Shown here: positions 208 through 25,860 of the stretch, piece after piece
Numbering within the stretch: position 1 is the first letter of the stretch
How the letters are laid out: each line of letters begins with the position of its first letter
Assembly: GCA_028688375.1 (NCBI GenBank)
Contig: JAQTYG010000009.1
Span: forward strand, 1-35,976
DNA: 35,976 nt
Direction of reading: 5' to 3'
From: Patescibacteria group bacterium
GTDB taxonomy: Bacteria > Patescibacteriota > Patescibacteriia > Magasanikbacterales > GWA2-37-8
The notes under the pieces: generated by a model
Database searches by the model: none
What the model saw: only the letters and a program-made list of their open reading frames with translations
What the model was told of the DNA's origin: nothing
Translations under genes and position numbers: made by a program

Positions 208-633
208 CTACGGAGTAAACGGCTGACCGGCGCCGGGAGAGGTGCCGACAGGCACCGTATTATTCCGACCGCCCATCGCCATCCAAGTAACGAAATAAGT
301 GATGGAATAAGCGGAAAAAATAATTATCAGGCCAATCACCGAGGCCTTGATGATATTTTTTGCTTTGGTAATTTGCTCTTCATTGCCTCCGGCCGTCATC
401 CATAAAGCGCCAGCATAAATGGTCAGAACTAAAAACACCATGCCAATTACACTTAGCGCCGTTCGAATGATAGTGCTGATAGCGAGGCGCGGATCCTGGG
501 CGGCGGCAAAACCGGCGCCCTGTTCGGCCGCGGCTTGCAACTGACCTTGCATTTCACCGACAGCGGCAAAAGCCGCTACGCCGGAAAATAAACTGACGGT
601 AATGACGGCGGAAAGAATGAATTTTTTGAACAT
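208..633 (-). CDS. T4SS pilin-like two-TM protein (start refined to MFKKFIL)
   Basis: Signal-like N-terminus plus SVIGMVFLVLTIYAGALWMTAGGNEEQITKAKNIIKASVIGLIIIFSAYSITYFV. Confidence 0.75.
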   Translation of the reverse strand: MFKKFILSAVITVSLFSGVAAFAAVGEMQGQLQAAAEQGAGFAAAQDPRLAISTIIRTALSVIGMVFLVLTIYAGALWMTAGGNEEQITKAKNIIKASVIGLIIIFSAYSITYFVTWMAMGGRNNTVPVGTSPGAGQPFTP

Positions 634-637
634 ATTT

Positions 638-1240
638 TTAAAGTGACACTTCAAATTCACAGCCGGTATTTTGAGTAATATAGGGCGTACAGGATTCACC
701 GGGATACCAAATAGCACCTTCCCATTTGGTCGTACACGACCCGACCGAAGCTGTTTGGGTGCATTTATCTTTATTTGGCATTTTTACGCAACAGCCCATT
801 TTGGCCGATGGACTATTATAACTCCCGCCGGTATCGGAACTTGGTGCCTGCGCACCGACTACAAAATTCATTACTAAAGCTGTCACGCCATAAGACAATA
901 CCACGATAATCAAACCAATCACCGCGGCTTTTATTATCCCCGTGGCTTTAGTGACCTTCTCTTCATTGCCGGCGGCTGTCATCCACAAGACTCCGGCGTA
1001 GATGGTCAACACCAAAAATATTACCCCGATCACCGACAGCACGGATTTAATGATACTGCCGACTGTGCGGGAAAGAGAGTACTCATCTTGACCGACCTCG
1101 TAACCGGCTTTTTGGGCGATACCACCGGTTAAACTGCCTTGGCCGACGATATCAACAGCCGAAGCGTAGGTGATTATCATCAGCGTTCCGACAAAAATTG
1201 CCAAAAGGCCGACAAAAAGAATTTTTTTATTTTTTACCAT
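638..1240 (-). CDS. T4SS pilin-like protein with Cys-rich C-terminal tail
   Basis: SVIGVIFLVLTIYAGVLWMTAAGNEEKVTKATGIIKAAVIGLIIV; tail MGCCVKMPNKDKCTQ... Confidence 0.75.
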   Translation of the reverse strand: MVKNKKILFVGLLAIFVGTLMIITYASAVDIVGQGSLTGGIAQKAGYEVGQDEYSLSRTVGSIIKSVLSVIGVIFLVLTIYAGVLWMTAAGNEEKVTKATGIIKAAVIGLIIVVLSYGVTALVMNFVVGAQAPSSDTGGSYNSPSAKMGCCVKMPNKDKCTQTASVGSCTTKWEGAIWYPGESCTPYITQNTGCEFEVSL

Positions 1241-1242
1241 AA

Positions 1243-1602
1243 TTACACATTAACACGATTTAAGATAAAAGTGGTAAGAGCGTAAGATGACATGATCACC
1301 GCCAAACCAACCACGGCTGTTACGATAATTCTTTTGGCGCGCTTAACTTCTTCCTCGCGACCGGCCGCTTTAATCCACACGATACCGCCGTAAATCATCA
1401 AGGCAAGAAAAATTGTGCCCAACACATAAAGTCCGCCCGCCATCGCCGAGGAGGCCGTGCCGGCGAAATCCGCGCTCAACCCGCTTTTCGCCTGAACATT
1501 GCTGAGCTTCCCGCCGGCGTCTTTCAGGCCTTGGGCCTGCACTAATAACGGCGCGAAAACACCGGATAGAAAAAAAGTTAATCGTTTGATAAAGGTGGGC
1601 AT
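1243..1602 (-). CDS. T4SS pilin-like two-TM protein (start refined to MPTFIKR)
   Basis: VLGTIFLALMIYGGIVWIKAAGREEEVKRAKRIIVTAVVGLAVIMSSYALTTFIL. Confidence 0.75.
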   Translation of the reverse strand: MPTFIKRLTFFLSGVFAPLLVQAQGLKDAGGKLSNVQAKSGLSADFAGTASSAMAGGLYVLGTIFLALMIYGGIVWIKAAGREEEVKRAKRIIVTAVVGLAVIMSSYALTTFILNRVNV

Positions 1603-1609
1603 AAAAAAA

Positions 1610-2110
1610 TTATTTTGAATCTGTTGTACAACAATATGTACCTTCAGCGCAACTCTCCCCAGCTCTTGCCGAGTGTCCAGCGCCACCGCAACCTATCATA
1701 CTATCAGCGCACTTCCAACACGAATTCTGCGTGCTGTTCGGCGAACCTTGGCCTCCAGCTGCCCCGCTCAACCGACTACCGACAAAATAAGTGATGGTAT
1801 AAGCGGAAAGCACGATTATCAAACCGATTACCGCGGCCACGATAATATTTCGGGCTTTGGTAATTTTTTCCTCATTCCCGCCGGCCGTCATCCACATCAC
1901 CCCGGCGGCAATGGTTAAAACTAAAAAGATCGTGCCGATTACGGCCAGCACCGAACTGATAATATTAGCGGCGGTGCCCTGCAAATCATTGGACAAACCG
2001 GACTTCCCGACTGATTCGTTCAATAAACCAGCGCCCAAAGCATCGGCTGAAACCGCTACCGGCGCGACCAGCAGAAGAGAAAACGTTAAAAAAACGATAA
2101 TTTTTTTCAT
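1610..2110 (-). CDS. T4SS pilin-like protein with Cys-rich tail
   Basis: AVIGTIFLVLTIAAGVMWMTAGGNEEKITKARNIIVAAVIGLIIVLSAYTITYFV; tail CWKCADSMIGCGG...CAEGTYCC. Confidence 0.75.
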   Translation of the reverse strand: MKKIIVFLTFSLLLVAPVAVSADALGAGLLNESVGKSGLSNDLQGTAANIISSVLAVIGTIFLVLTIAAGVMWMTAGGNEEKITKARNIIVAAVIGLIIVLSAYTITYFVGSRLSGAAGGQGSPNSTQNSCWKCADSMIGCGGAGHSARAGESCAEGTYCCTTDSK

Positions 2111-2128
2111 AAGATAAAAAATAAAAAA

Positions 2129-3079
2129 TTATTTTTCCCAGTACTCTTTTACTTCACCGAAACAACATTTAAAATCTTCCGCGGCAAACGCGCCAAAACA
2201 ATACCCGGATTTCAATTTAGTTTCCGGCTCGCAGCGTTGGGACTCTTGCGTGTTGGTAACTTGGATACAAACGCCTCCGGCCTGCTGGCAAGATTTGCAA
2301 CAAACTTCACCTTTGGCGCAACCGCCAACCTGGCCGGCTTTGCCGTTTTGGTTGGTACAGCCGGCTACGGTCGAACAAAAACCGCCGCTTTTGACACAGG
2401 CGTTCTCGGCAGGCGGTTCGTTTGTTCCGCCACTCCCGCCGGAACCGCTATCGGGCGATGAATTGACCGCGCTATATTCCGCGTCAGACACGCAACATTT
2501 CATGTTCGCGCCACCAGGGCAAAGTCCGCTTAAAATTTTCCCATCGCATTGGCCGCTTTCCAAATCCATACATTTGGCATCCGGATAAATATATTTGCAC
2601 TCCTCCACACAACCTTTGCTCGCCCCGCATACTTTGCCATCTTTAACGCAATCAGCCGAACGAGAGCCGGGCGCGGCCGTACCGCTGGCGCAACCGCCGC
2701 TGGAAACCGAAAGGAAACTTTCAAAAATAAAACCGGCAATGGCGTAAGCGGCCAGCACGATAATCAAACCGATAAAAGCCGACTGCATTTTATTTTTCGC
2801 TTGAGTAACTTTTTCCGTGGAGCCGGCGGCCGTCATCCAGGTCAGACCGGCGATTAAAATGAGAACGAAAAAATAAACGCCCACCAAAGATAAGGCGACG
2901 GAAACTATCTGGCCGATCACCCGAGGGATATCACCGGTTCGGCTGATGGCGTTGGAGGAAAGACCGGAAACTTGAGCCGCGGTATTTAAACCATAACTTG
3001 ACGCTGACCACGCATTTACGGCAAAGCCAAGCCCGATAATGACCGCGAGAAATAAAATGTATTTTCCAAATTTTAGCAT
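2129..3079 (-). CDS. T4SS pilin-like protein with long multi-segment Cys-rich C-terminal region
   Basis: SLVGVYFFVLILIAGLTWMTAAGSTEKVTQAKNKMQSAFIGLIIVLAAYAIAGFIF followed by repeated C...CC segments. Confidence 0.75.
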   Translation of the reverse strand: MLKFGKYILFLAVIIGLGFAVNAWSASSYGLNTAAQVSGLSSNAISRTGDIPRVIGQIVSVALSLVGVYFFVLILIAGLTWMTAAGSTEKVTQAKNKMQSAFIGLIIVLAAYAIAGFIFESFLSVSSGGCASGTAAPGSRSADCVKDGKVCGASKGCVEECKYIYPDAKCMDLESGQCDGKILSGLCPGGANMKCCVSDAEYSAVNSSPDSGSGGSGGTNEPPAENACVKSGGFCSTVAGCTNQNGKAGQVGGCAKGEVCCKSCQQAGGVCIQVTNTQESQRCEPETKLKSGYCFGAFAAEDFKCCFGEVKEYWEK

Positions 3080-3086
3080 ATTTTAA

Positions 3087-3641
3087 TTACGGTGTTTCTT
3101 CGCACGTCCCATAGACAACGGAGCCCTTAAAATCATTTTGACACATAGTCCATTGTTCTTCCGTGTCGGAAATCGGCGAACAAGTGACTGACCCGTCGGT
3201 CTCGTCAGTGACTTGGCACCAGGTTTCTTGCCCGCTATTGCCACCGGCGCCGGCATTGGGGTCTTCTCCGGTTTGCAGACGAGTAAAAATAAAACTGGAA
3301 ATAGCGAAAGAAGCGGCGGTAATAAGCAAGCCAATTAAAGCGGTTTCCAAAATAGTTTTGGCTTCATTTATTTTATCGGTCGCGCCCATGGCCGTCATCC
3401 ATTTTAAACCGGCATACAAAATCAGCAGAAAAAAAATCGTACCGACAAAAAATAAAACCGTCCTGACGATGGTGGCGGCCAAACTCTCCGGCGTCTCGTT
3501 GCTAAGGGACATGGAAGCGAGCGGAGTGTTTCTGGCCGTATTTTGCAAACCATATTTATCCGCCGCGGAAAAAACAAAAATCGGCGCGAACAACATCGCC
3601 CCAAAAATCACTCCCACTATCATCCGGCGCGCTTTATTCAT
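3087..3641 (-). CDS. T4SS pilin-like two-TM protein
   Basis: FFVGTIFFLLILYAGLKWMTAMGATDKINEAKTILETALIGLLITAASFAISSFIF. Confidence 0.75.
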   Translation of the reverse strand: MNKARRMIVGVIFGAMLFAPIFVFSAADKYGLQNTARNTPLASMSLSNETPESLAATIVRTVLFFVGTIFFLLILYAGLKWMTAMGATDKINEAKTILETALIGLLITAASFAISSFIFTRLQTGEDPNAGAGGNSGQETWCQVTDETDGSVTCSPISDTEEQWTMCQNDFKGSVVYGTCEETP

Positions 3642-3721
3642 AACTTGCTAAACTTATCGGCTTACCGGCTTATTATTTAACTTCGGTCTTGTTTCTTTTT
3701 TGTAAACAAACGAGGCCAAAA

Positions 3722-3762
3722 TTGCTGTCAGGGGGTTGCGCGCGCGAACCCCCTGACAGCAA
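3722..3762 (-). terminator. Strong hairpin (perfect 16-bp stem, 9-nt loop) between pilin paralogs; terminator/attenuator candidate
   Basis: ttgctgtcagggggtt / gcgcgcgcg / aaccccctgacagcaa. Confidence 0.55.
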
Positions 3763-3765
3763 ATT

Positions 3766-4182
3766 TTACGGCGTTCCTGTCGCCAATGTCAATTGTGTGA
3801 TAATGAAACTGGCCAAAGCATAGGCCGACAAAATAATGACCAAACCGATAACACCGGAGAAGATCCATTTTTTTGCCTCGCCCACTTGCTCTTCGTTTCC
3901 GCCGGCAGTCATCCATTTGAAACCGCCGATCAAGATTATAACCACGGCCACGATACCCAACAGACCCATGGCTACTCTAATAATTCTGGCTACGGTGGTG
4001 CGCACGTCGGTACTGCTTAAACCGGTTGCCGCGCCATAACTCAGGCCCAAATCCTCGGTCCCAAGCGGGGTAACATCAGTAGTGACCTCTTCATCTACCG
4101 CGTAAGCCGGAACCGCCAAGAGGCAGAAAAAACCGCCGGCCACCATCGCGAATGTCGCCACAAATAGTGAAATTTTACTCAT
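3766..4182 (-). CDS. T4SS pilin-like two-TM protein (start refined to MSKISLF)
   Basis: GLLGIVAVVIILIGGFKWMTAGGNEEQVGEAKKWIFSGVIGLVIILSAYALASFII; SD-like GGAAAGGGGG upstream. Confidence 0.75.
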   Translation of the reverse strand: MSKISLFVATFAMVAGGFFCLLAVPAYAVDEEVTTDVTPLGTEDLGLSYGAATGLSSTDVRTTVARIIRVAMGLLGIVAVVIILIGGFKWMTAGGNEEQVGEAKKWIFSGVIGLVIILSAYALASFIITQLTLATGTP

Positions 4183-4291
4183 ATTTTCACCCCCTTTCCA
4201 TGAAATATAATACATTTTTTCATAAAAAATAGTTGCGCCTCGCACTTTGTTCCTGTGGGTTTATTTTATCAAAATACCACCGAGAAAGCAA

Positions 4292-4804
4292 TTACTGCGA
4301 CGCGCCGGACAAGAATTTCAGGAAGGTGTCAACCAGCAAAAAGCTGGCTAAAACCAAAACTAAACCAATTATCGCCCACAACATGGTCTGACTGCCCTTT
4401 TTCACTTTTTCCTGATTACCGGCTGAGACCAACCATTGGAAACCGCCCCAAACCGTCATCGCCAAAGCCAAACCGCCAATCAAACCAAGGGCAGATTTTA
4501 TTATCAAGCCGATGATGGTGGACGGGCTAGCCCCGACATTAAGCGGATTTTCTAAACTAACGGTGCTGGCGCCGGAATTTCCGCCGCCGTTATTGGTTTC
4601 ACCACCTGTTTCTGCCGTACAATCCTCGGTCACTACGGTGCCGTTGCTCACGTCTTTGCACATATTGCGGTCAACTTCCGTATCGTTAATGACCGCGCAA
4701 AATTTCTCACCATCTTGAACAAAAGAACACCAAACCGCGGCGCCGGCTATTCGTGGTATCACCAGGGCTGTTAAAATAATAATTGTCACCAGAATTTTTT
4801 TCAT
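4292..4804 (-). CDS. T4SS pilin-like two-TM protein (start refined to MKKILVT)
   Basis: GLIGGLALAMTVWGGFQWLVSAGNQEKVKKGSQTMLWAIIGLVLVLASFLLVDTFL. Confidence 0.72.
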   Translation of the reverse strand: MKKILVTIIILTALVIPRIAGAAVWCSFVQDGEKFCAVINDTEVDRNMCKDVSNGTVVTEDCTAETGGETNNGGGNSGASTVSLENPLNVGASPSTIIGLIIKSALGLIGGLALAMTVWGGFQWLVSAGNQEKVKKGSQTMLWAIIGLVLVLASFLLVDTFLKFLSGASQ

Positions 4805-4806
4805 AT

Positions 4807-5715
4807 TTACCCTATTTTTTCCAATACAGTTTTTATTATCATATAGCTCGCGCCCATGGCCAAAGCGCCCAAAGTGGTCCAAACCAAAATTCTTTTGGCT
4901 TTGTCAACTCTTTCCGCATTACCCGAAGCCGACATCCAGATAAAACCGGCAAAAATATATAGAACCAAAGCAATGGAGCCCATGAAAGCCATCATTAAAT
5001 TAATCCCGCGGGTAAAAAGAACGGACGGCGAACCGATATCCATGGGATTTAAATTGGTAGCGCCTTTTTTCAATTCACTTATCCCGCCCTTGGGCTGTTC
5101 CGCCGGCTTGGTGCCGACGGTTTCATTATTTAGGGTTGGATCAATGGTTTGTTGTTGATCACAAGGATCTTCAGATAAAATTCCTAAACAAGAATCGCCA
5201 TTTAATATAGCCCGACAATCGCCGGCAATCGTTGAAGCGCACCAGCACCCTTCTGTGTTTGTACAAGTAAGGACATCGTCACCCTCTGTTTGAGCATACG
5301 CCGTTTCCACCCAACTAATTCTTTTTTCCGCTTTAACGCCGATGGTGTTGCTCAAAAACGTAATCAGAGCATAAGCGCTAAAGGAGATAACCAAGCCAAT
5401 AATCGCCGCCGTCATCGCCCCGGTCCCCTGTTTTATTTTTTCTTGATTACCTTGCGACATGATTAAAATAAAACCGCCGTAAACAAAAAACAACAGCGCT
5501 AAAGCGCCGATAAAACCGAATAAATAGGTGCCGACATTGATTGCCAACCAAATAAAGACGTTAACATTGTCGCAATTCGCGTCGATCTGCGCGCCGAGCA
5601 AACACTGCGGAATAAAAGCGCTCTCTTTGGCTTCACCTTGAGCGTACGCCGGCCCAGCCGATACCAAACCGCCGAGCAAAGCGACGAAGACGACCATGGC
5701 GTAAAAAAAACGCAT
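4807..5715 (-). CDS. Double-module T4SS pilin-like protein
   Basis: Two separate two-TM modules: FIGALALLFFVYGGFILIMSQGNQEKIKQG... and FMGSIALVLYIFAGFIWMSASGNAERVDKAKRIL... Confidence 0.75.
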   Translation of the reverse strand: MRFFYAMVVFVALLGGLVSAGPAYAQGEAKESAFIPQCLLGAQIDANCDNVNVFIWLAINVGTYLFGFIGALALLFFVYGGFILIMSQGNQEKIKQGTGAMTAAIIGLVISFSAYALITFLSNTIGVKAEKRISWVETAYAQTEGDDVLTCTNTEGCWCASTIAGDCRAILNGDSCLGILSEDPCDQQQTIDPTLNNETVGTKPAEQPKGGISELKKGATNLNPMDIGSPSVLFTRGINLMMAFMGSIALVLYIFAGFIWMSASGNAERVDKAKRILVWTTLGALAMGASYMIIKTVLEKIG

Positions 5716-7248: not shown

Positions 7249-8112
7249 TTATACCACACTTTTCAGGTATTTTCTAAACTCTTTGGCCAATTTCGGGTCG
7301 CGCAAAGCAAAATCCACGTTAGCTTTCAAATAGCCGAATTTGGAACCGGTGTCATAATATTCGCCGTCAACTACTTTGGCGTAAATCGGGCGTTTCTTCA
7401 ATACTTTAGCGTTCGCGTCCGCCAGCCACAATTCCCCGTCTTTGCCGAGTTTGGTGTGTTCCAGCGCCTCAAAAATATCCGGGGTCAAAATAAACCCACC
7501 CAAACAAGCCAAGCGCGACGGCGCTTTCTCCGGGCCGGGTTTTTCCACGATTGATTTCACTTGGTAAACCCCCGGCTCCACCTGAACGCCGTCAATCACG
7601 CCGTACTTTCTGGTGCCGGCGGCGTCAACCACGCGAGTGGTGATAACCGGATCACCATATTTATCAAAAACTTCAATCAATTGTTTAAGCTGAGATTTTT
7701 TTGGCGCGTAAAAAAATTCATCGCCCCACATCACGGCAAACGGCTCGTTGCCGACAATCGGCTTGGCGCAAAGCACCGGCGTGCCGTTACCGTAGGGTCC
7801 TTTCTGACGGATAAAAATAAAATTGGCCAAGTCGGCGATTTTTTTCACCTCTTCAGCCACGTCAATCTTATTTTGTTTTTTTAACAAATTCACCAATTCG
7901 TAATTCGGGCTGAAATGGTCTTCCACCGCCCGCTTGGACGGACCGGTGATAAAAATGATATCAGTAATGCCGGCACGCACCGCGTCTTCCACCACATATT
8001 GGATAATCGGCTTATCCACTACCGGTAACATTTCTTTGGGCTGGGCTTTAGTGGCGGGTAAAAACCTAGTGCCTAAACCGGCGACGGGAATGACGAGTTT
8101 TTTGATGGACAT
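7249..8112 (-). CDS. galU: UTP-glucose-1-phosphate uridylyltransferase
   Basis: VIPVAGLGTRFLPATKAQPKEMLPVVDKPIIQYVVEDAV; FAVMWGDEFF; VEKP; start refined to MSIKKLV. Confidence 0.93.
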   Translation of the reverse strand: MSIKKLVIPVAGLGTRFLPATKAQPKEMLPVVDKPIIQYVVEDAVRAGITDIIFITGPSKRAVEDHFSPNYELVNLLKKQNKIDVAEEVKKIADLANFIFIRQKGPYGNGTPVLCAKPIVGNEPFAVMWGDEFFYAPKKSQLKQLIEVFDKYGDPVITTRVVDAAGTRKYGVIDGVQVEPGVYQVKSIVEKPGPEKAPSRLACLGGFILTPDIFEALEHTKLGKDGELWLADANAKVLKKRPIYAKVVDGEYYDTGSKFGYLKANVDFALRDPKLAKEFRKYLKSVV

Positions 8113-8308
8113 AAAATAAAAATTTTTAATTTTTAATTTCCAATTTTTAATCAATTTCTAATTTTCAATTTACAAATTTTGAAAATTTTTTCATTGAAAA
8201 TTCAATGAAAATTGTAAATTGACAATTGAAAATTTAACGGTTTAATTATAGCACCCGCGCCCTTCACATAGCAAACGCCCCTTTGGCACAATCCCGTGTC
8301 AAAATAAG

Positions 8309-9691
8309 CTAGTTCACTTCTTCCCAGGTAATCAAATTATACTCCGAACCGACCGGAAAAGACGGCGGCGGACCATAGGTCAGGTTGGTATCATAGGTCA
8401 TGGACGTGCTGACGTAACCGGAGGTAACCTGCCCGCTGGCGTTGGCCCAGCTCCAAGTCCAAACACCGGAGGAAATAATCGAACCGTAAACCAATAAACT
8501 GGTTTTTTTGTCGCTCGGATAATAATACCGCTTGGCCGCGCCTTTTTGCGCCAACATGGCCGCGTTAATCTCCATATATTCCGGAGAATTGTGCGGGATA
8601 AGGATGTTTTGTTCGGCCATCAAACCAATGCAATGGCTGCCGTCTTTGGCCAGATAAGTTAAATTGTCGTAAATAATAATGGATTTACCGGCCGCGGTGC
8701 CAACAGTAACTCGGCCATTAACCACACCTTCCACCCACACCGTATCTGCCACAAAAATATAACTGCTGGTGGGCATGCCGTAAGTGGTGGTTGATCCGAG
8801 CGTTTTTATATCCACGCAATAGTCTACGTATTTATTGGAATTGACGTCTTTGCCTCGTTCGCAAGTAACCGAATTAACTTTGTTTATATCAATTTTCCCA
8901 TCGGCGCGAAATTTTAAACGCCAGCCAGAGGCGCCGGACGAAGAAAGATAAATACCGCCGTTTTCCGGATCAGCCCCCTCTTCCACATCAGCCAATTTGG
9001 CCGTGACCACGGTAAAATCCTTGCGGGGCACGGGAAAACTCCAATATTCTTTCGGCCCGCCATCACCCCAAATCCCCGGTTTCACTTGATTGGAACAACT
9101 GTGATACTCCTTGCAAAGATAGGAGGAAGTGGCGCTGGTGATCGGCGCGTCGCCCAGGCCGTCATAGCGGATACCGCCATTGGCATGAAACTTGCCATGC
9201 GTTTTCTCTTCATCTCCAATCCATACATCAACATCAGTTAAGATGGAAAAATCGGCCATAGAAGGAAAGCCCAGCCTCGCTCGAATGGTGCGCCGACTGG
9301 CCGGCTGAGAATCCAGCCAACCGGTTGACTCAATCGTCACCACGCTGGAACCGGTGAGGGGCGGGGTGATACTTAAAGAATACCGGCCGATCACGTTGCC
9401 CTCTTTATCTTCGTAGGTGTGGATGTAAGGGCCGGAGGTGGCAGTACCATCAAAAAAGTCTTCTTTATTGTGCGCCAGATGCCAACGATAATAATTGACG
9501 CCAGCTTCGGCGATTTGAAAAGCCATCTCTCGACCATGTTTATAAACCGAAGCGCGATTTTCCGAAATAGCGTAACCGGATACGGCCGCCACCACCACGG
9601 AAAAAGCCAGCACGCCGAAAATCGTGGCGTACAAAATTATACTACCCTTATTATTTAACCGGAATTTGGAGGGGAGAAAAATTTTTTTCAT
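8309..9691 (-). CDS. PilX-like pilus assembly/prepilin-associated protein
   Basis: NNKGSIILYATIFGVLAFSVVVAAVSGYAISENRAS...AFQIAEAGVNYYRW. Confidence 0.6.
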   Translation of the reverse strand: MKKIFLPSKFRLNNKGSIILYATIFGVLAFSVVVAAVSGYAISENRASVYKHGREMAFQIAEAGVNYYRWHLAHNKEDFFDGTATSGPYIHTYEDKEGNVIGRYSLSITPPLTGSSVVTIESTGWLDSQPASRRTIRARLGFPSMADFSILTDVDVWIGDEEKTHGKFHANGGIRYDGLGDAPITSATSSYLCKEYHSCSNQVKPGIWGDGGPKEYWSFPVPRKDFTVVTAKLADVEEGADPENGGIYLSSSGASGWRLKFRADGKIDINKVNSVTCERGKDVNSNKYVDYCVDIKTLGSTTTYGMPTSSYIFVADTVWVEGVVNGRVTVGTAAGKSIIIYDNLTYLAKDGSHCIGLMAEQNILIPHNSPEYMEINAAMLAQKGAAKRYYYPSDKKTSLLVYGSIISSGVWTWSWANASGQVTSGYVSTSMTYDTNLTYGPPPSFPVGSEYNLITWEEVN

Positions 9692-9852: not shown

Positions 9853-10482
9853 TTAGTTGCTTTTCAAATTTCTGATTTCGGCCTTAGCCTGAATGGTAAA
9901 CGGCACCGGCGAAAATCTCGGATCTTCTTCTAAAATCAACTGGACGCCAACCATGCGAATCAGCGTGGTGGTCACCGGCGAGGCCAACGGCGTGCCGGAG
10001 ACAGAACCGGTGTAGGTTTGGTCAAAATAAGTAAAAATCGGGGTGGATGAATTATTGGCCACATCATGGGCGATGGTGGTGATGGCTTCAGTGCTGGTGT
10101 TGTAAGTTAACGGATTCCCTGCCGGCTTGGTCACACCTTTTTTAAAATCGGTGGCGGATAAAAAATATCTGATTCTTTCCCGATATGAATCCGAATCAAT
10201 ATTAGAAAAGAAAATCAGTTGGTTGCTCTCGGCTTTTTCTATGGTATAGGCGCCGACCGATGATTGATTGGCGCTGCGCAATTCATTGACGAAAACCTGG
10301 ACCACTAACCGGCCCTCGTTTTGCGTCACCAGCTGTTCCCAGATAATATTCCGCGAAGAAAAACTAAATAACAAAATCGCGGTCAGACCGCCGACCACCA
10401 ATAAAAAAATGCTCATGGACACTATCATTTCCAACAAAGTAAAGCCCTTTCTGTCGGAAAAAATTTTAGGCAAGAAAAACAT
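9853..10482 (-). CDS. Type IV pilin-like protein (PilW/PulJ-like, prepilin N-terminal methylation motif)
   Basis: RKGFTLLEMIVSMSIFLLVVGGLTAILLF. Confidence 0.75.
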   Translation of the reverse strand: MFFLPKIFSDRKGFTLLEMIVSMSIFLLVVGGLTAILLFSFSSRNIIWEQLVTQNEGRLVVQVFVNELRSANQSSVGAYTIEKAESNQLIFFSNIDSDSYRERIRYFLSATDFKKGVTKPAGNPLTYNTSTEAITTIAHDVANNSSTPIFTYFDQTYTGSVSGTPLASPVTTTLIRMVGVQLILEEDPRFSPVPFTIQAKAEIRNLKSN

Positions 10483-13094: not shown

Positions 13095-13787
13095 TCACCG
13101 CCACGAACATTCCGCCACCAGCGGACGAATCTGTTCGCAAATTTTTTCAAACTCCTCGTCGCTATAAGTAGTCATCTCCATAAAAGCCGGGTCCAGCGTT
13201 TTGGTCGGCAAAAATCTTTGCAAAATATATTTCTTCGCGCCGGCGATATGCCTGACGATTTCCATGATATCTTCCGGCGTCAGTTGTTCCTTCACCACCG
13301 TGGTGCGAAATTCATAATCCAGCCCGGAATTCATCGCCAAAGCCGCGCTCAAACGCACATCGGCCGCGTCCACCGTGGAATTAATATGCGTCTGGTACTT
13401 CCGCCACGGCGCTTTAATATCCATGGCTAAATAATCAACCAGGTTTTGTCTCAGGGCCTCGGCCAGCACTCCCGGCCGACTGCCGTTGGTGTCCAATTTT
13501 ATCGCGAAACCCATGGTTTTCAACCGCGCCATAAAATCTAACAAGTCCGGTTGCAAAGTTGGCTCACCGCCGGTAATCACCACCCCGTCCAATTTCCCCC
13601 GGCGCGTTTCCAAAAACTCAATCACCTCGTGTTCGGTGACTGGCGCGAACATGCCCTGCGACAAGTTAATCAATTCCGGATTGTGACAAAAAGGGCAACG
13701 AAAAGGACAGCCCTGCGTGAACAAAATCGCGCTGGTCCGTCCGGGAAAATCTATGAGAGAAAATTTTTGCCAACCGCCGAAAATCAT
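13095..13787 (-). CDS. nrdG: Anaerobic ribonucleoside-triphosphate reductase activating protein (radical SAM)
   Basis: CPFRCPFCHNPEL (CxxxCxxC); VVITGGEPTLQPDL; adjacent to nrdD. Confidence 0.9.
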   Translation of the reverse strand: MIFGGWQKFSLIDFPGRTSAILFTQGCPFRCPFCHNPELINLSQGMFAPVTEHEVIEFLETRRGKLDGVVITGGEPTLQPDLLDFMARLKTMGFAIKLDTNGSRPGVLAEALRQNLVDYLAMDIKAPWRKYQTHINSTVDAADVRLSAALAMNSGLDYEFRTTVVKEQLTPEDIMEIVRHIAGAKKYILQRFLPTKTLDPAFMEMTTYSDEEFEKICEQIRPLVAECSWR

Positions 13788-16700
13788 ACATCAAGAGGTA
13801 GGATCGTTTTAAACGTCCTCCTCATGGTAAACTCGGCGCGCTTGCCTTTATTCCATTGGTCCACCGGGCGCAAATAGCCGACGACGCGAGAATACACCTC
13901 GCACTTGGCTTGGCACTCCGGACATTTGAAATGTTCGCCGGCGATATAACCGTGGGTCGGACAGACGCTGAAAGTCGGCGAGAAAGTGAAGTAGGGCAAT
14001 TTGTAATTGGTACAGATTTTCTTAACCATGTTCTTGACCGCGTTCGGATCGGAAATTTTTTCACCGACAAACAAGTGTAACACCGTGCCCCCGGTATATT
14101 TGGTTTGCAAATTATCCTGCAAATCAAGCGCTTCAAAAATATCATCCGTGTAATTGACCGGCAATTGCGTGGAATTGGTATAGAACGGATCCACGTGAGT
14201 TTTTTTGTAAATTTCTTCATTGGCCACGATAATATCCGGATATTTTTCTTTATCTTTTTGCGCCAGACGGAAAGAGGTGCCTTCGGCCGGAGTCGCTTCC
14301 AAATTGTAATTGTTGCCGGTCTCCTTTTGGAAATCAATCATTTTATCACGCATGAAATCCATCACTTTTTCGGCAAAAGCGCGCCCCTTGGTCGTGGTGA
14401 TAGTCTCCCCCGGCATCAAATTAACAATCGCCTCGTTCATGCCGAGAATGCCGATGGTATTAAAATGATTCTTCCAATAACAGCCGTGGCGCTCTTTCAT
14501 GTTGCGCAAATAATATTTGGAATAGGGATAAAGATTTTTGTCGGTAAAATTTTCCAGCACCTTGCGTTTTAACTCCAAACTTTCCTTGGCCAGTGTCATT
14601 AAATCACCCAGCTTCTTCAAAAAGGTCTTTTCGTTTTTAGCCGTATAGCCCAAGCGCGGCAAATTCAGGGTCACCACGCCGATGGAGCCGGTCAACGGAT
14701 TGGCGCCAAACAAACCGCCCCCGCGCCGTTCCAACTGGCGATTATCAATGCGCAGACGACAGCACATGGAGCGGGCGTCTTCCGGACTCATATCCGAATT
14801 GATAAAATTGGAAAAATAGGGCACGCCGTATTTGCCCGTGATTTCCCAAAGCGCTTTCAGTTTCGGGTTATCCCAATCAAAATCTTTGGTAATGTTGTAG
14901 GTCGGAATGGGAAAAGTAAAAACCCGCCCTTTGGCATCGCCGGCCATCATCACTTCGAAAAATGCCTTGTTCAATAAATCCATTTCTTTTTGGAAATCGC
15001 CGTAACATTCTTTCTGCGGTTTGCCCCCAATCAGCACCGGCTGGTCTTTGTAATAGCTCGGCACGTTCAAGTCCATGGTGATGTTGGTGAACGGAGTATT
15101 GCCGGTAATAAAAATTTTGCCATTGCGCCGGGCGATTACGGTTTCATTGTCAGTATTGGGACACCAAATCACGCCCTGATAATCAATTTGCTTAACCTCA
15201 TTGATGTAGGTATCTGTGTGTTTGATCAAGCGAATGATATAACGATCTTTTTTTGACAATTCATTATCCGGCTTTCTGACCAAAACTGTCGCGCCATAAC
15301 CGGCATTAGCCGCCGTCATCATCAAACCGTCTTTGATGGCCGCCGAAGCGGTGGTTATTTTGCATTCGTCGTGGCCGTCGCCCCTAATATATGTTTCCAA
15401 AAATAATCTGGCGGTCTCAGTGTCGGCCGATAAAATTTCCCGCGGCACAAACTTGATACCGGCCGATTTATCGCCGCCGAAAAATGCCAAAATCTTTTTG
15501 GTAGAAGTGGCATCAAAACGCAAAACTTGACAATCAGCGCCCAAACCGGACTGCGTTCTTTCGGTATAAGACAAGCTCAACTCTTCGCTTAAGGCCTTAA
15601 TTTCTTCATATTCGCTCGGTTTAATTTCGCGAGATTGATAAATACTGACGCGGCCGGCGCCCTTCTCGCCTTTATCCAATGTGCCCTCGGCTATCACCCA
15701 AGCTAAAAATTTAACCCAAGCGTCGCTTAGGGCGCTTTGCCCTTTAACATTGCCGAGCGAACCGACCGGTACGATAAACGGGGATTTTAATTTCAAAACT
15801 TTTTCAATCGGCTCCAAAACATAACTACCGCCGTTAAATTGTTTTCTGACGACTCTGTGTTCCGGAGAGATCAACTGGTCGGTGATGCGGTTTTTTAAAT
15901 TATACATTTTGCCTTTATACTCGCGGGCAAAAATCCGCTTGACCGGCAGATATTCGATAACGCCGGACTCAACGTTAAAAGTGGCGATAACATCTTTTTC
16001 CTTAACACCTTTATAACCTTTCCAACCTTCGGCCGTTAAAATTTCCGTGTCTTCCGACATACATTGAAAGCCCACCCGGGTCGGTACATTCATGTTAAAC
16101 AAAAATTCCTGCAGGGCCTGTTTGGTTTCTTCGTAAGTTAGATTGTCGTAACGAATAAACGGCGCGAGCAAAGTATCGAAATTGGAGAAGGCTTGCGCGC
16201 CGGCCGCTTCGCCCTGCAAAGTATAGAAAAAATTCACCACCTGGCCGAGAGCGCTGCGCAAATGTTTCGGCGGTTTTGATTCGATTTTCCCGGGCACGCC
16301 TTTGAAACCTTCCAACAACAAATCGTGCAAGTCCCAACCAACGCAATAAACCGACAAAATATTCAAATCATGAATATGCATGTCACCGGTCAGGTAAGCT
16401 TCTTTAATTTCTTTGGGATAAATTTTATTCAGCCAGTAGGCCTTGCTGATTTCGGATGAAATATAGTTGTTCAAGCCCTGCAGAGAAAAAGTCATGTTGC
16501 TATTTTCGTTCACCTGCCAGTCCAGCTGGTCCAAATACTGATCCACCAGATTAACATTCGCCCGATTATTCAGCTCGCGCAGTTGAGCGTGCTGGTCGCG
16601 GTAAATAATAAAGGCCTTGGCGGTTTTTTTGTACGGCGAGCTAAGCAAAACCTCTTCCACCAAGTCCTGAATGTCTTCCACGTTGGGAATTTTGGCCTTA

Positions 16701-16861
16701 ATCAAATCGCCGGCCATGGCCAACGCTTTGGCGGTAAGTTTTTGGGCGATTTTTTCGTCAAATTCACCGGTGGCCACGCCGGCTTTGGCGATCACCCGGG
16801 TAATTTTGGCAGCGTCAAACTTTACCACCCGGCCGTCTCTCTTTTTTATTTGCTTGAACAT
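13784..16861 (-). CDS. nrdD: Anaerobic ribonucleoside-triphosphate reductase, interrupted by an intein
   Basis: ATP-cone N-terminus; GDMHIHDLNILSVYCVGWDL; CPTHGYIAGEHFKCPECQAKCEVYSRVVGYLRPVDQWNKGK (Zn site and Gly-radical loop). Confidence 0.95.
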   Translation of the reverse strand: MFKQIKKRDGRVVKFDAAKITRVIAKAGVATGEFDEKIAQKLTAKALAMAGDLIKAKIPNVEDIQDLVEEVLLSSPYKKTAKAFIIYRDQHAQLRELNNRANVNLVDQYLDQLDWQVNENSNMTFSLQGLNNYISSEISKAYWLNKIYPKEIKEAYLTGDMHIHDLNILSVYCVGWDLHDLLLEGFKGVPGKIESKPPKHLRSALGQVVNFFYTLQGEAAGAQAFSNFDTLLAPFIRYDNLTYEETKQALQEFLFNMNVPTRVGFQCMSEDTEILTAEGWKGYKGVKEKDVIATFNVESGVIEYLPVKRIFAREYKGKMYNLKNRITDQLISPEHRVVRKQFNGGSYVLEPIEKVLKLKSPFIVPVGSLGNVKGQSALSDAWVKFLAWVIAEGTLDKGEKGAGRVSIYQSREIKPSEYEEIKALSEELSLSYTERTQSGLGADCQVLRFDATSTKKILAFFGGDKSAGIKFVPREILSADTETARLFLETYIRGDGHDECKITTASAAIKDGLMMTAANAGYGATVLVRKPDNELSKKDRYIIRLIKHTDTYINEVKQIDYQGVIWCPNTDNETVIARRNGKIFITGNTPFTNITMDLNVPSYYKDQPVLIGGKPQKECYGDFQKEMDLLNKAFFEVMMAGDAKGRVFTFPIPTYNITKDFDWDNPKLKALWEITGKYGVPYFSNFINSDMSPEDARSMCCRLRIDNRQLERRGGGLFGANPLTGSIGVVTLNLPRLGYTAKNEKTFLKKLGDLMTLAKESLELKRKVLENFTDKNLYPYSKYYLRNMKERHGCYWKNHFNTIGILGMNEAIVNLMPGETITTTKGRAFAEKVMDFMRDKMIDFQKETGNNYNLEATPAEGTSFRLAQKDKEKYPDIIVANEEIYKKTHVDPFYTNSTQLPVNYTDDIFEALDLQDNLQTKYTGGTVLHLFVGEKISDPNAVKNMVKKICTNYKLPYFTFSPTFSVCPTHGYIAGEHFKCPECQAKCEVYSRVVGYLRPVDQWNKGKRAEFTMRRTFKTILPLDV
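15098..16063 (-). mobile_element. Intein (322 aa) with LAGLIDADG-type endonuclease motifs inside NrdD
   Basis: Junctions GFQ|CMSEDTEILTAEGW ... NGKIFITGN|TPFTN; motifs FLAWVIAEGTL and FLETYIRGDGH; 966 nt in frame. Confidence 0.92.
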
Positions 16862-19246: not shown

Positions 19247-20320
19247 TTATTTTTTGGTAATCCAATAATCCATCAATAATTTCTGCCGCAACTTAAAAGC
19301 GTTCCCGTGCTTCAACATGCCCAAGTAAGACTGCACTGCTTCCTCTTTTGAGTTTTCATCTATCCGCGCAAACATCCTTTGCTTTGTCGCCCGCCGCAAA
19401 ACACGATGGCCGGGGAAGTTAACCCAGCCGAGAAAATCCACGCCGGATGAATATGTTTGGATAAAAACTTTTTTGTCGTGCAAACGCAATTTCAGCCGCA
19501 ACTCTAAAAATTCAGCAATTCGCGGAATAATATTTTCCAGCCAATCCCTGTCCGCCGACAAAATAGCAAAATCATCGGCATAACGGATATATTTTTTCGC
19601 GCGCAAATTATGTTTCACCCATTGGTCTAATTCATTCAAATATACATTGGCGAATAATTGCGAAGTCAAATTGCCGAGTGGCAGGCCGACTTTGTCATCC
19701 CCGTGAAAACGGGGATCCAACGGCGACTGGATTCCCGCCTGCGCGGGAATGACAAACGAGTGTGGACAACGCGCGGTTTCAAAACTCCCCACCACCTCCC
19801 CCAGCAACCACAAAACATTCACATCCGCAACATGCTCGCCCAAAATCCCCAGCAAAACATCATGGTCAATACTGGCGAAAAACTTACGAATATCGCCTTT
19901 CAATACCCAGCAGGTCCGATGATCATTTCGGCTTTCGCTCCGCGCCATCTGATTGAATCGCTTCACCGCCTTGTGTGTGCCTTTGTCCAGTCGGCACGAA
20001 TACGAATCGGCAATAAATATCCGGTCAAAAAACGGATATAACACGCGGTAAATGGCGTGATGTAGAAGACGGTCGCGCACGCTGGCTTTGTGAATCTGGC
20101 GCGGTTTTGGGTCGCTGATATTAAACGCTTCGTATGGTCCGTGCCGATAAGTCCGATTGGCCAAATCCTCGTGAAGAGATTTAATATTGTCGGCCAGAGT
20201 ATATTCAAACGCCAAAACATCCAGTTTCCTTTTTTTACCGACAACAAACTCGCCCCAGGCGAGAAATAAATTTTTCATTGAAATTATATCTTCAAAACTA
20301 TGGACCAATCTACTCTTCAT
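19247..20320 (-). CDS. DGR-type reverse transcriptase
   Basis: KGDIRKFFASIDH, GLPLGNLTSQLFANVYLNELDQW, KYIRYADDFAIL; linked to TR/VR pairs and avd. Confidence 0.93.
   Translation of the reverse strand: MKSRLVHSFEDIISMKNLFLAWGEFVVGKKRKLDVLAFEYTLADNIKSLHEDLANRTYRHGPYEAFNISDPKPRQIHKASVRDRLLHHAIYRVLYPFFDRIFIADSYSCRLDKGTHKAVKRFNQMARSESRNDHRTCWVLKGDIRKFFASIDHDVLLGILGEHVADVNVLWLLGEVVGSFETARCPHSFVIPAQAGIQSPLDPRFHGDDKVGLPLGNLTSQLFANVYLNELDQWVKHNLRAKKYIRYADDFAILSADRDWLENIIPRIAEFLELRLKLRLHDKKVFIQTYSSGVDFLGWVNFPGHRVLRRATKQRMFARIDENSKEEAVQSYLGMLKHGNAFKLRQKLLMDYWITKK
19691..19756. repeat. 66-bp palindromic repeat inserted in frame in the RT ORF
   Basis: tttgtcatccccgtgaaaacgggg...cccgcctgcgcgggaatgacaaa; minus strand translates as FVIPAQAGIQSPLDPRFHGDDK, a translation typical of dispersed palindromic repeats. 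Confidence 0.85.
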
Positions 20321-20701
20321 ATAAAAACAAATCTCTCAACCCCCCCCCAAGGCAATTTAGACGCAAGCAAACTTCCGATAGTAATTAAACTAAGCGTGAG
20401 TTATAAACAATGGCACGAATATTTAATCGCCCTCCCCCGCCACACGCGCTTTACCATCGGCAGTAAAATTGACAGTTTGTTCGCCGACTGTTTGGAACTT
20501 TCGCTCATGGCCGGATACGCCCCGCGCGATAAAAAATCAGAAGTGGCGCGACGCTTAAGCGTAAAATTTGACGCCTTAAAATTTTTTCTGAAACTGCTTT
20601 GGGAAATAAAAGGGCTGGATAATAGAAAATATACCACGCTCTCGCCACACCTAAACGAAATCGGCAAAATGATCGGCGGGTGGATGAAAATGCTTGGATA
20701 A
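20300..20701 (+). CDS. avd: DGR accessory variability determinant-like four-helix-bundle protein
   Basis: RFTIGSKIDSLFADCLELSLMAGYA...SVKFDALKFFLKLLWEIKGLDNRKYTTLSPHLNEIGKMIGGWMKM matches the Avd/four-helix-bundle pattern. Confidence 0.85.
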   Translation: MDQSTLHIKTNLSTPPQGNLDASKLPIVIKLSVSYKQWHEYLIALPRHTRFTIGSKIDSLFADCLELSLMAGYAPRDKKSEVARRLSVKFDALKFFLKLLWEIKGLDNRKYTTLSPHLNEIGKMIGGWMKMLG

Positions 20702-20716
20702 TTTTTTTATACGCAA

Positions 20717-20736
20717 AAGGGTGCTCGCGCACCCTT
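20717..20736. terminator. Hairpin between avd and TR
   Basis: aagggtgc-tcgc-gcaccctt; minus-strand loop is GCGA (GNRA), followed by TTTT. Confidence 0.5.
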
Positions 20737-20754
20737 GTTATATTTTCCCACCAT

Positions 20755-20868
20755 CAGCGGGAAGACGCCCAAGTTGTCGTTGCGGTTGTCGTCCCAGTTG
20801 TCGTTGCAGTTGAGCCCGGTCTCATCGAAGTCACCGAGGTTGAGCCGGTTGCCGTCCGAGTTGCGGGT
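20755..20868 (-). repeat. DGR template repeat (TR), 114 bp, rich in AAC codons
   Basis: Minus strand acccgcaactcggacggcaaccggctcaac...aacttgggcgtcttcccgctg; aligned by eye to VR1 and VR2 with differences only at TR adenines. Confidence 0.97.
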
Positions 20869-21146
20869 CATAATATGCCGTCAATCATCCAGAACACCAC
20901 CTTTTGTCCGCATAATGCCAATCAACAGAAGCAGACTCAAGATTGAATATAATTTGAAATCTAAAATTTACTAACTAACGGCACGGGGTGTGAAAATAAT
21001 ACAAAGATAATTAATATGCCGGGGCAATCCTTGAACGGCTCCGTTCGAATTATTTATCTTTGGCAACTGCCGGCCGGCATCCGTGAACGCCGGCATCTTG
21101 CGACGCAGTGGGTATATTATAATGAAAAAATAAAAATTAAAAAAGG

Positions 21147-21176
21147 GCCCGAGATACCGAAGTACCAAGGGCCCAA
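21147..21176 (-). terminator. Rho-independent terminator of DGR target 1
   Basis: Minus strand gggcccttggtac-ttcg-gtatctcgggcccttttttaatttttatttttt. Confidence 0.75.
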
Positions 21177-21182
21177 GCGAAG

Positions 21183-21218
21183 CCCCGCACCGACCGCCGA
21201 AAGCGGTCTGGTGCGGGG
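21183..21218 (-). promoter_or_regulatory. DGR-type hairpin/cruciform downstream of VR1
   Basis: Minus strand ccccgcacc-a-gaccgc-tttcg-gcggtc-ggtgcgggg (15 bp plus one bulge); identical copy downstream of VR2. Confidence 0.75.
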
Positions 21219-21242
21219 GACCTAACGAAAGAGCCAAGCGTC

Positions 21243-21956
21243 CTAGGAACCAAGCTCCACCCCCAGCGGGAAGACGCCCAAGGAGCCGTAGCGGTGGTCG
21301 TCCCAGGTGACGTAGCAGTGGAGCCCGGCCTCATCGAAGCCACCGAGGTGGAGCCGGGAGCCGACCGAGTAGCGGGTATCCGTCCGCACCCAGTCGGTGT
21401 TGAGCGGGGCGCGCTCACCCGTGCGCTTGAAGTGCGCCATGATGAGACCGGCGACGAGAGCCGCCGAGCCGAACGAGGCGCAGTGGCTCGCGGGCAAACC
21501 GTACTTCTCGCGAAGCTCGACGAGCGCCTGCATCTGCTCCTCGGCGTTCTTCTTCGTCGCGACCATGCGCGGGATGAAGAACACCAAGCAGTCGACCGTG
21601 GGCTCGTCGTTCTTGAGCTCCCAGTCCTGTAGGTAGCTGAACTTCTCGTAGCAGGGGCCGGCGAGGGGGGCGTGCAACTTCAGGGTGAAGCCGGCCTTCA
21701 CTGCCCAGAGGACCGGGCCGGTGTAGCCCAGGTCGCTCGCGAGCTTGCGCCACTTCGCGACCGCGCCCACGAGGTGGGCCGGAGCGTCCTTGTCGTCGAC
21801 GTGCGTGAAGAAGGTGTTCTCCACGGCCGCGCGGACCAGACCAGCGACGAACTCCTTGAACTCCTTGCCCTTCTCCACCAACACGGATTGCTCCTCATCA
21901 GAGAGACCGGTGATGATGGCGGCGATGGCGTTGAACGAAGCCTTGCGGTTTGCCAT
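21243..21956 (-). CDS. DGR target (variable) protein 1
   Basis: Start refined to MANRKAS after AAGGAG SD; VR at the 3' end of the gene; paralogous to target 2. Confidence 0.93.
   Translation of the reverse strand: MANRKASFNAIAAIITGLSDEEQSVLVEKGKEFKEFVAGLVRAAVENTFFTHVDDKDAPAHLVGAVAKWRKLASDLGYTGPVLWAVKAGFTLKLHAPLAGPCYEKFSYLQDWELKNDEPTVDCLVFFIPRMVATKKNAEEQMQALVELREKYGLPASHCASFGSAALVAGLIMAHFKRTGERAPLNTDWVRTDTRYSVGSRLHLGGFDEAGLHCYVTWDDHRYGSLGVFPLGVELGS
21264..21377 (-). repeat. DGR variable repeat VR1 (114 bp)
   Basis: Same length as TR; 16 substitutions, all at TR adenines (7 to T, 6 to C, 3 to G). Confidence 0.97.
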
Positions 21957-24966: not shown

Positions 24967-25050
24967 TCCCCTCAAAGAGGGGAGGAAAACGTCCTGCAAA
25001 AAAAATAAAAAGGCCCGAGATACCGCGAAGTACCAAGGGCCCAAGCGAAG

Positions 25051-25086
25051 CCCCGCACCGACCGCCGAAAGCGGTCTGGTGCGGGG
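25051..25086 (-). promoter_or_regulatory. DGR-type hairpin downstream of VR2
   Basis: Identical 36-nt hairpin to 21183-21218. Confidence 0.75.
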
Positions 25087-25110
25087 GACCTAACGAAAGA
25101 GCCAAGCGTC

Positions 25111-25860
25111 CTAGGAACCAAGCTCCACCCCCAGCGGGAAGACGCCCAAGTTGTCGTCGCGGCTGCCGTCCCAGTCGCCGTCGCAGCCGAGCCCGGTCTC
25201 ACCGAAGTCACCGAGGCCGAGCCGGTCGCCGCCCGAGTGGCGGGTATCCGTCCGCACCCAGTCGGTGTTGAGCGGAGCGCGCTCGCCCGTGCGCTTGAAA
25301 TGCGCCAGGATGAGGCCGGACACGAGAGCCGCCGAGCCGAACGAGGCGCAGTGGCTCACGGGCAGACCGTACTTCTCGCGGAGCTCGGCCAGTGCCAGCA
25401 TCTGCTCCTCGGCGTTCTTCTTCGTCGCGACCATGCGCGGGATGAAGAACACCAAGCAGTCGACCGTGGGCTCGTCGTTCTTGAGCTCCCGGTCCTGCAG
25501 GTAGCTGAACTTCTCGTAACAGGGGCCGGCGAGGGGGGCGTGCGATTTCAGGGTGAAGCCGGCCTTCACTGCCCAGAGGACCGGGCCGGTGTAGCCCAGG
25601 TCGCAGGCGAGCTTGCGCCACTTACTTCTTGCTTCAATGAACGCGATTGGGACTTCCTCATCAGCAAGAGAGATGACGAACTCTTTCTTCTCTCTTCCCT
25701 TTCTTCTTTTTTCTGGCGACTTCTTCGGCCAGACAACGCCCGCCGGCATCGGCCCGCCTTTGAGAAACAGGCCGAGGTCGTGCGCGAACTCATCGCCGTT
25801 TTTCCCGGCCAAGCGTTCTCTCACCTCACCTACCAGATTCCACGCTGTTTTGTAGTCCAT
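25111..25860 (-). CDS. DGR target (variable) protein 2
   Basis: Shares its C-terminal part with target 1 (KWRKLA.DLGYTGPVLWAVKAGFTLK...); VR at the 3' end; different N-terminal domain. Confidence 0.93.
   Translation of the reverse strand: MDYKTAWNLVGEVRERLAGKNGDEFAHDLGLFLKGGPMPAGVVWPKKSPEKRRKGREKKEFVISLADEEVPIAFIEARSKWRKLACDLGYTGPVLWAVKAGFTLKSHAPLAGPCYEKFSYLQDRELKNDEPTVDCLVFFIPRMVATKKNAEEQMLALAELREKYGLPVSHCASFGSAALVSGLILAHFKRTGERAPLNTDWVRTDTRHSGGDRLGLGDFGETGLGCDGDWDGSRDDNLGVFPLGVELGS
25132..25245 (-). repeat. DGR variable repeat VR2 (114 bp)
   Basis: 14 substitutions versus TR, all at TR adenines (13 to G, 1 to C). Confidence 0.97.

Follow-up and report, generated by a model that had tools for sequence, protein, structure and literature searches.

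Why should two VRs copied from one TR differ so strongly in the bases that have replaced adenine? A sequence-only reading of the window (the whole 35,976-nt stretch of DNA analysed here, contig JAQTYG010000009.1 of a Patescibacteria group bacterium) raised this question for a locus whose second VR is changed almost exclusively from A to G, and it suggested that this VR had been diversified by a different process or has an unusual history. The locus is composed of the following features.

19247–20320, minus strand: DGR reverse transcriptase (RT), 357 aa, with motif 4 GLPLGNLTSQ and YADD (Pfam RVT_1, 2.7e-20)
19691–19762, minus strand: in-frame insert of 24 aa in an RT loop, HSFVIPAQAGIQSPLDPRFHGDDK, directly before motif 4
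20300–20701, plus strand (opposite to RT and TR): avd, encoding the accessory protein (Pfam bAvd, 43.1 bits, cut-off 40)
20717–20736, minus strand: short hairpin directly 3' of the TR, predicted by folding
20748–20868, minus strand: template repeat (TR), with 28 adenines in its diversified stretch
21132–21755, minus strand: duplicated block, copy 1 (C-terminal domain, VR and 3' hairpin), 92% identical to 24998–25623
21183–21219, minus strand: G+C-rich, target-site-like hairpin 3' of VR1, predicted by folding
21243–21956, minus strand: target gene 1, an ORF with VR1 at its 3' end, aligned with the targets of relatives
21257–21377, minus strand: VR1, from alignment with the TR, with 7 A>T, 6 A>C and 3 A>G; an outlier in its clade
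24998–25623, minus strand: duplicated block, copy 2 (C-terminal domain, VR and 3' hairpin), 626 bp
25051–25087, minus strand: predicted hairpin 3' of VR2, the same as that 3' of VR1
25111–25860, minus strand: target gene 2, an ORF with VR2 at its 3' end and an N-terminus that differs from that of target gene 1
25125–25245, minus strand: VR2, from alignment with the TR, with 13 A>G and 1 A>C

Judged from its sequence, this locus is a canonical DGR of a Magasanikbacteria-like Patescibacterium. The RT is of the DGR type and carries the SQ form of motif 4, which aligns with that of phage DGR RTs; within the diversified stretch, every TR/VR mismatch falls on a TR adenine (16/16 for VR1 and 14/14 for VR2); both VRs lie at the 3' ends of target ORFs; Avd is present; and a GG/AT difference from the TR that is common to the VRs marks a putative IMH, with hairpins predicted downstream. 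The DGR of the Bordetella phage BPP-1 also has a hairpin downstream of its VR. For the C-type-lectin fold looked for in the target variable domain, the predicted structure is of low confidence (pLDDT 58) and gave no fold match. The variable domain had no sequence match in the PDB, an Rfam search gave no match, and neither did a scan of viral contigs with the window RT.

Relatives of the RT occur in 45 of 95 related genomes. The insert in the window RT is repeat-like (FVIPAQAGIQSPLDPRFHGDD) and, in the RT alignment, is missing from the closest relative (L049). Insertions favour this loop in other RTs too: about 20 of them carry unrelated inserts at the same place, including those of loci L043, L044, L047, L101-L103, L107, L114, L116 and L126, which makes the loop a hot spot for insertion. 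The avd gene is encoded on the strand opposite to the RT in 145 of 146 related Patescibacteria DGR loci and is placed between the RT and the TR. The starts of RT and avd overlap divergently, by a median of ~30 nt. The full avd antisense sequence would be part of any transcript running from TR to RT; in the phages examined, avd is on the RT strand. A limited literature search found no description of the opposite-strand arrangement. The 626-bp duplicated block is joined to two different N-termini, a case of target-module shuffling. In the 0.97-Mb genome (G000) as a whole, contigs C11 (that of the window), C15 and C17 encode three separate DGR-type RTs, each with its own TR/VR-like repeat pair.

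We aligned the TR, VR1 and VR2 without gaps over the intervals listed above, and left out of the counts the AT (TR) versus GG (both VRs) difference at TR positions 20753–20754, which the two VRs share in identical form and which is located towards the IMH. VR1 is changed at 16 of the 28 TR adenines (7 A>T, 6 A>C, 3 A>G) and VR2 at 14 of 28 (13 A>G, 1 A>C); with the common AT/GG difference set aside, these are exactly the counts of the sequence-only reading. At non-A positions within the 28-adenine stretch, the TR does not differ from either VR. The Fisher comparison that the same reading had called for indicates that the contrast is real (G versus non-G, p=5.6e-5), and a three-category chi-square test agrees (p=2.3e-4). 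At CAA adenines, changes to G number 0/8 in VR1, and the CAA sites of VR2 now hold 6 G, 2 A and 1 C; in VR1, the second adenine of AAC has become C in all three cases where it is changed. Eight sites are altered in both VRs, as many as chance predicts, and at no such site do the two VRs carry the same base, indicating that VR1 and VR2 are independent products. No further copy of the TR was found in the 969-kb genome.

We then asked which of the two VRs is unusual for its clade. From ~160 loci around related RTs, TR/VR pairs were obtained by self-alignment and an adenine-bias filter, giving a comparison set of 131 VRs of related Patescibacteria DGRs besides the two in the window; the set comes from draft genomes in which each VR is a single assembled haplotype, and the window pair was selected for looking extreme. 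The pooled changes of the 131 VRs are 62% A>G, 22% A>T and 16% A>C. The preference for A>G is mutational rather than selected, since it is also present at third-codon-position adenines (61 of 90 changes, 68%). It depends on context: the second A of AAC goes to G in 79% and to C in 2% of changes, the first A of CAA goes to G in 49%, and A>C accounts for 3% of changes at NAC sites in the clade versus 3/8 in VR1. In a leave-one-locus-out context model, VR2 has a z score of +2.75 (rank 132 of 133; +2.49 with a simpler model) and VR1 a z score of -3.61 (rank 2 of 133, the second lowest; -3.85 with the simpler model), and five other VRs of the 131 also have at least 90% A>G. A>G is therefore normal for the clade, VR1 is the stronger outlier, and VR2 lies in the upper tail. 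The sequence-only reading is supported in that the two VRs were written under different spectra, but not in that VR2, which follows the clade norm more closely than VR1, is the odd copy needing a different process.

The spread between VRs extends beyond the window. Among the 131 relative VRs and those of the window, the variance of the context-corrected z scores is 1.94, where 1 is expected (chi-square p=7e-10), and restricting the set to pairs that have 95% or more, or 100%, of their mismatches on A leaves a similar overdispersion. The premise of the sequence-only reading, that one TR and one RT should give similar spectra, holds in phages: no heterogeneity is seen among the 19 distinct VRs of hankyphage-type phages, whose TRs are almost identical (p=0.38; p=0.21 by within-site permutation), or among the VRs within each of 24 viral-contig DGRs that have several VRs (within-DGR p=0.34; p=0.66 on raw counts), and the smallest of 32 pairwise Fisher p values in multi-VR phage DGRs is 0.11. 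The window pair, however, breaks it. In a within-DGR test for which the scores were copied by hand from earlier result tables, VR1 and VR2 are 3.9 within-DGR standard deviations apart (p=9e-5; 0.003 when corrected for 34 multi-VR DGRs), and they are the most extreme of all pairs found. Nine multi-VR Patescibacteria DGRs besides the window also show a within-DGR excess (p=0.037), which comes largely from locus L077, where three VRs of one TR (4502–4623, 7393–7518 and 8361–8488) have A>G in 8/18, 9/19 and 18/20 of their changes (p=0.005). L077 is a second case of VR contrast within one Patescibacteria DGR. At locus L159, 13 of the 16 changes in the VR at 8287–8400 (TR at 10275–10388) are A>T, and the second VR written from that TR likewise has few changes to G (2/14).

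Scores are coherent along individual VRs. They covary between alternate 6-nt blocks of one VR (r=0.36, p=3e-5), between the first A of AA and the other As within a VR (r=0.41), and between the As in Asn codons and those that stand alone in other codons (r=0.32, p=5e-4), suggesting that the state behind the spectrum is VR-wide. Scores of nearest-RT neighbours, by contrast, are uncorrelated (r=0.00; Moran's I p=0.90). Because close RTs disagree in score, a cause specific to the RT is disfavoured, and we rejected an RT-specific spectrum for want of any RT-phylogenetic signal. Three other candidates were also set aside: local G+C does not correlate with the spectrum; A>C changes at NAC sites are not concentrated in certain VRs, which would have pointed to a second error mode (p=0.30); and an older version of the TR is an improbable source of VR2, given that relatives' TRs, 69–83% identical, by eye mostly keep A at the common sites.

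The explanation that we find best supported, and to which we give about an even chance, is that the misincorporation state changes from one retrohoming event to the next. VR1 and VR2 would be independent retrohoming products of one TR, whose adenines are misread by the RT. The error preferred in the clade would be insertion of C across from A, which appears as A>G in the VR, and the proportions in which C, A and G are placed at template adenines would shift with each reverse-transcription event, across the whole cDNA. VR2 would have been written near the clade-typical, C-misincorporating extreme, and VR1 in a state that places A and G opposite A (giving A>T and A>C). The shifting state may be the dNTP balance or the state of RT and Avd at the time of homing. 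In favour of this explanation we count the clade spectrum, the excess variance among VRs, the coherence within VRs, the absence of a tie to the RT, the second contrast at L077, and the lack of a deaminase candidate and the published spectra of bRT (for both, see below). Against it, the Patescibacteria DGRs with several VRs number just nine besides the window and their excess is mostly that of L077; changes to G are scarce in the two VRs of L159 alike, which suggests an effect at the level of the DGR; and selection for binding residues could yield part of the covariation.

Two markers were tested in this genome, which is rated 100% complete, and both of them, purF and pyrB, are missing. Their absence suggests that the organism probably scavenges nucleotides, which would make changing nucleotide pools plausible. 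It is possible, though rather unlikely, that each VR in nucleotide-scavenging Patescibacteria records the dNTP balance or RT state at its last retrohoming, such that the amino-acid spectrum explored is set by physiology and changes per event. If the error spectrum belongs to the event and is not fixed by the RT, then the repertoire sampled (Gly/Asp-rich versus Tyr/His/Ser-rich) depends on the state of the cell, and one VR is insufficient for inferring the error profile of an RT.

Selection on VR1 is the main rival to an error state that shifts between events, and we regard it as possible though distinctly less probable. VR1 would encode an expressed, selected binder rich in Tyr, His, Ser, Thr and Val, and VR2 would be near raw, unselected RT output. 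The clade error model predicts 6.0±1.7 such residues, against 13 in VR1 (0 of 5000 simulations) and 5 in VR2, the latter in line with the model; in addition, the three A>C changes of VR1 at second As of AAC are of a kind hardly ever met in the clade (2% of the changes at such sites). However, these residues arise automatically from changes to T and C, making the spectrum a confounder of the enrichment, and covariation of scores across codon types and along the VR is not predicted by site-specific selection. As to VR2, its product is indeed Gly/Asp-rich, as had been described, because A>G at AAC and GAC codons yields Gly and Asp automatically. Under the clade error model, 12.5±1.7 Gly plus Asp residues are expected from the TR, versus 16 in VR2 and 8 in VR1, and the selection for Gly/Asp codons that had been proposed for VR2 is therefore unnecessary.

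That one of the genome's other DGR-type RTs wrote VR1 (or VR2) in trans is unlikely. The RTs on C15 and C17 are candidates, and the spectrum is mixed for the C17 repeat pair (5 A>G, 4 A>C, 4 A>T) and G-rich for those on C15 (11/1/7 and 17/2/3 for G/C/T), but each of these RTs has its own repeat pair and no other copy of the window TR was found. Sampling from a single fixed spectrum is quite unlikely to account for the difference: the changes are just 16 and 14 in number and the pair was chosen as extreme, but the Fisher test and the separation within the DGR, which survives correction for the 34 multi-VR DGRs, argue against it. An alteration of the RT between the two events, for example gain or loss of the insert beside the fidelity motif 4, is very unlikely; the insert lies directly before that motif and is missing in the closest relative, but among relatives insert length has no association with spectrum (rho=-0.05, p=0.60), and we rejected the insert as a cause. 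We find it highly improbable that VR2 is an assembly consensus in which the commonest base of a diversified population was kept at each site. The assembly is a draft of 33 contigs, the closest relatives are MAGs and G is the commonest change, but VR2 sites of equal context are not uniform (as at CAA), metagenomic phage VRs show no consensus-like effect, and such a consensus leaves VR1 unexplained. Finally, adenosine deamination of the TR RNA, suggested in the sequence-only reading and expected to yield pure A>G, is hardly credible: proteins of PF14437 and PF00383, both of which match in 12 of 14 control genomes, are absent from this complete-rated genome, which thus offers no candidate among the TadA/cytidine-deaminase families (PF02137 matched neither here nor in any control genome), and the mutated fraction of VR2 is normal (14/28), leaving no sign of an extra editing layer.

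By host and RT similarity, the window DGR appears to belong to the Patescibacteria DGRs of clade 2 (Roux et al. 2021, PMC8144416), which it resembles in its RT, Avd, TR, 3'-terminal VRs, adenine-specific changes, hairpin 3' of the VR and cellular host; what sets it apart is that two VRs of one TR occupy opposite extremes of the spectra found in the clade. It shares adenine mutagenesis from a TR with BPP-1, for which A>G is commonest in E. coli (PMC12875486), but misincorporation of G (A>C) is common at NAC in BPP-1 and rare there in the window's clade, VR1 excepted. For bRT, misincorporation of C dominates in E. coli (59%) and that of A in vitro (43%), and dNTP pools were named as a possible but secondary, partial cause, sequence context being given more weight (PMC12875486). 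In DiGReF, a collection of 155 DGRs, A>G was commonest, with wide variation from VR to VR, and VRs of one DGR were said to show drastically different patterns (data not shown; Schillinger et al. 2012, PMC3521204). That study, which had neither a context model nor a test of coherence within VRs, concluded that substitutions are essentially random. Since it had reported differing VRs of one DGR, the window is a strong example of a phenomenon noted earlier: it is an ordinary DGR with an unusually strong VR contrast. Our analysis adds a test that corrects for sequence context, the finding that spectra are coherent along a VR, the absence of an RT signal and the contrast with phages.

Two other regions of the window drew our attention. 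The ORF at 13784–16861 (minus strand) appears, from inspection of its translation, to encode an NrdD-like anaerobic ribonucleotide reductase interrupted by an intein, and is followed by an NrdG-like ORF. At 208–5715 (minus strand), about eight small paralogous ORFs encode putative membrane proteins that share a motif like IYAG..WMTAxGNEE and look pilin-like by eye.
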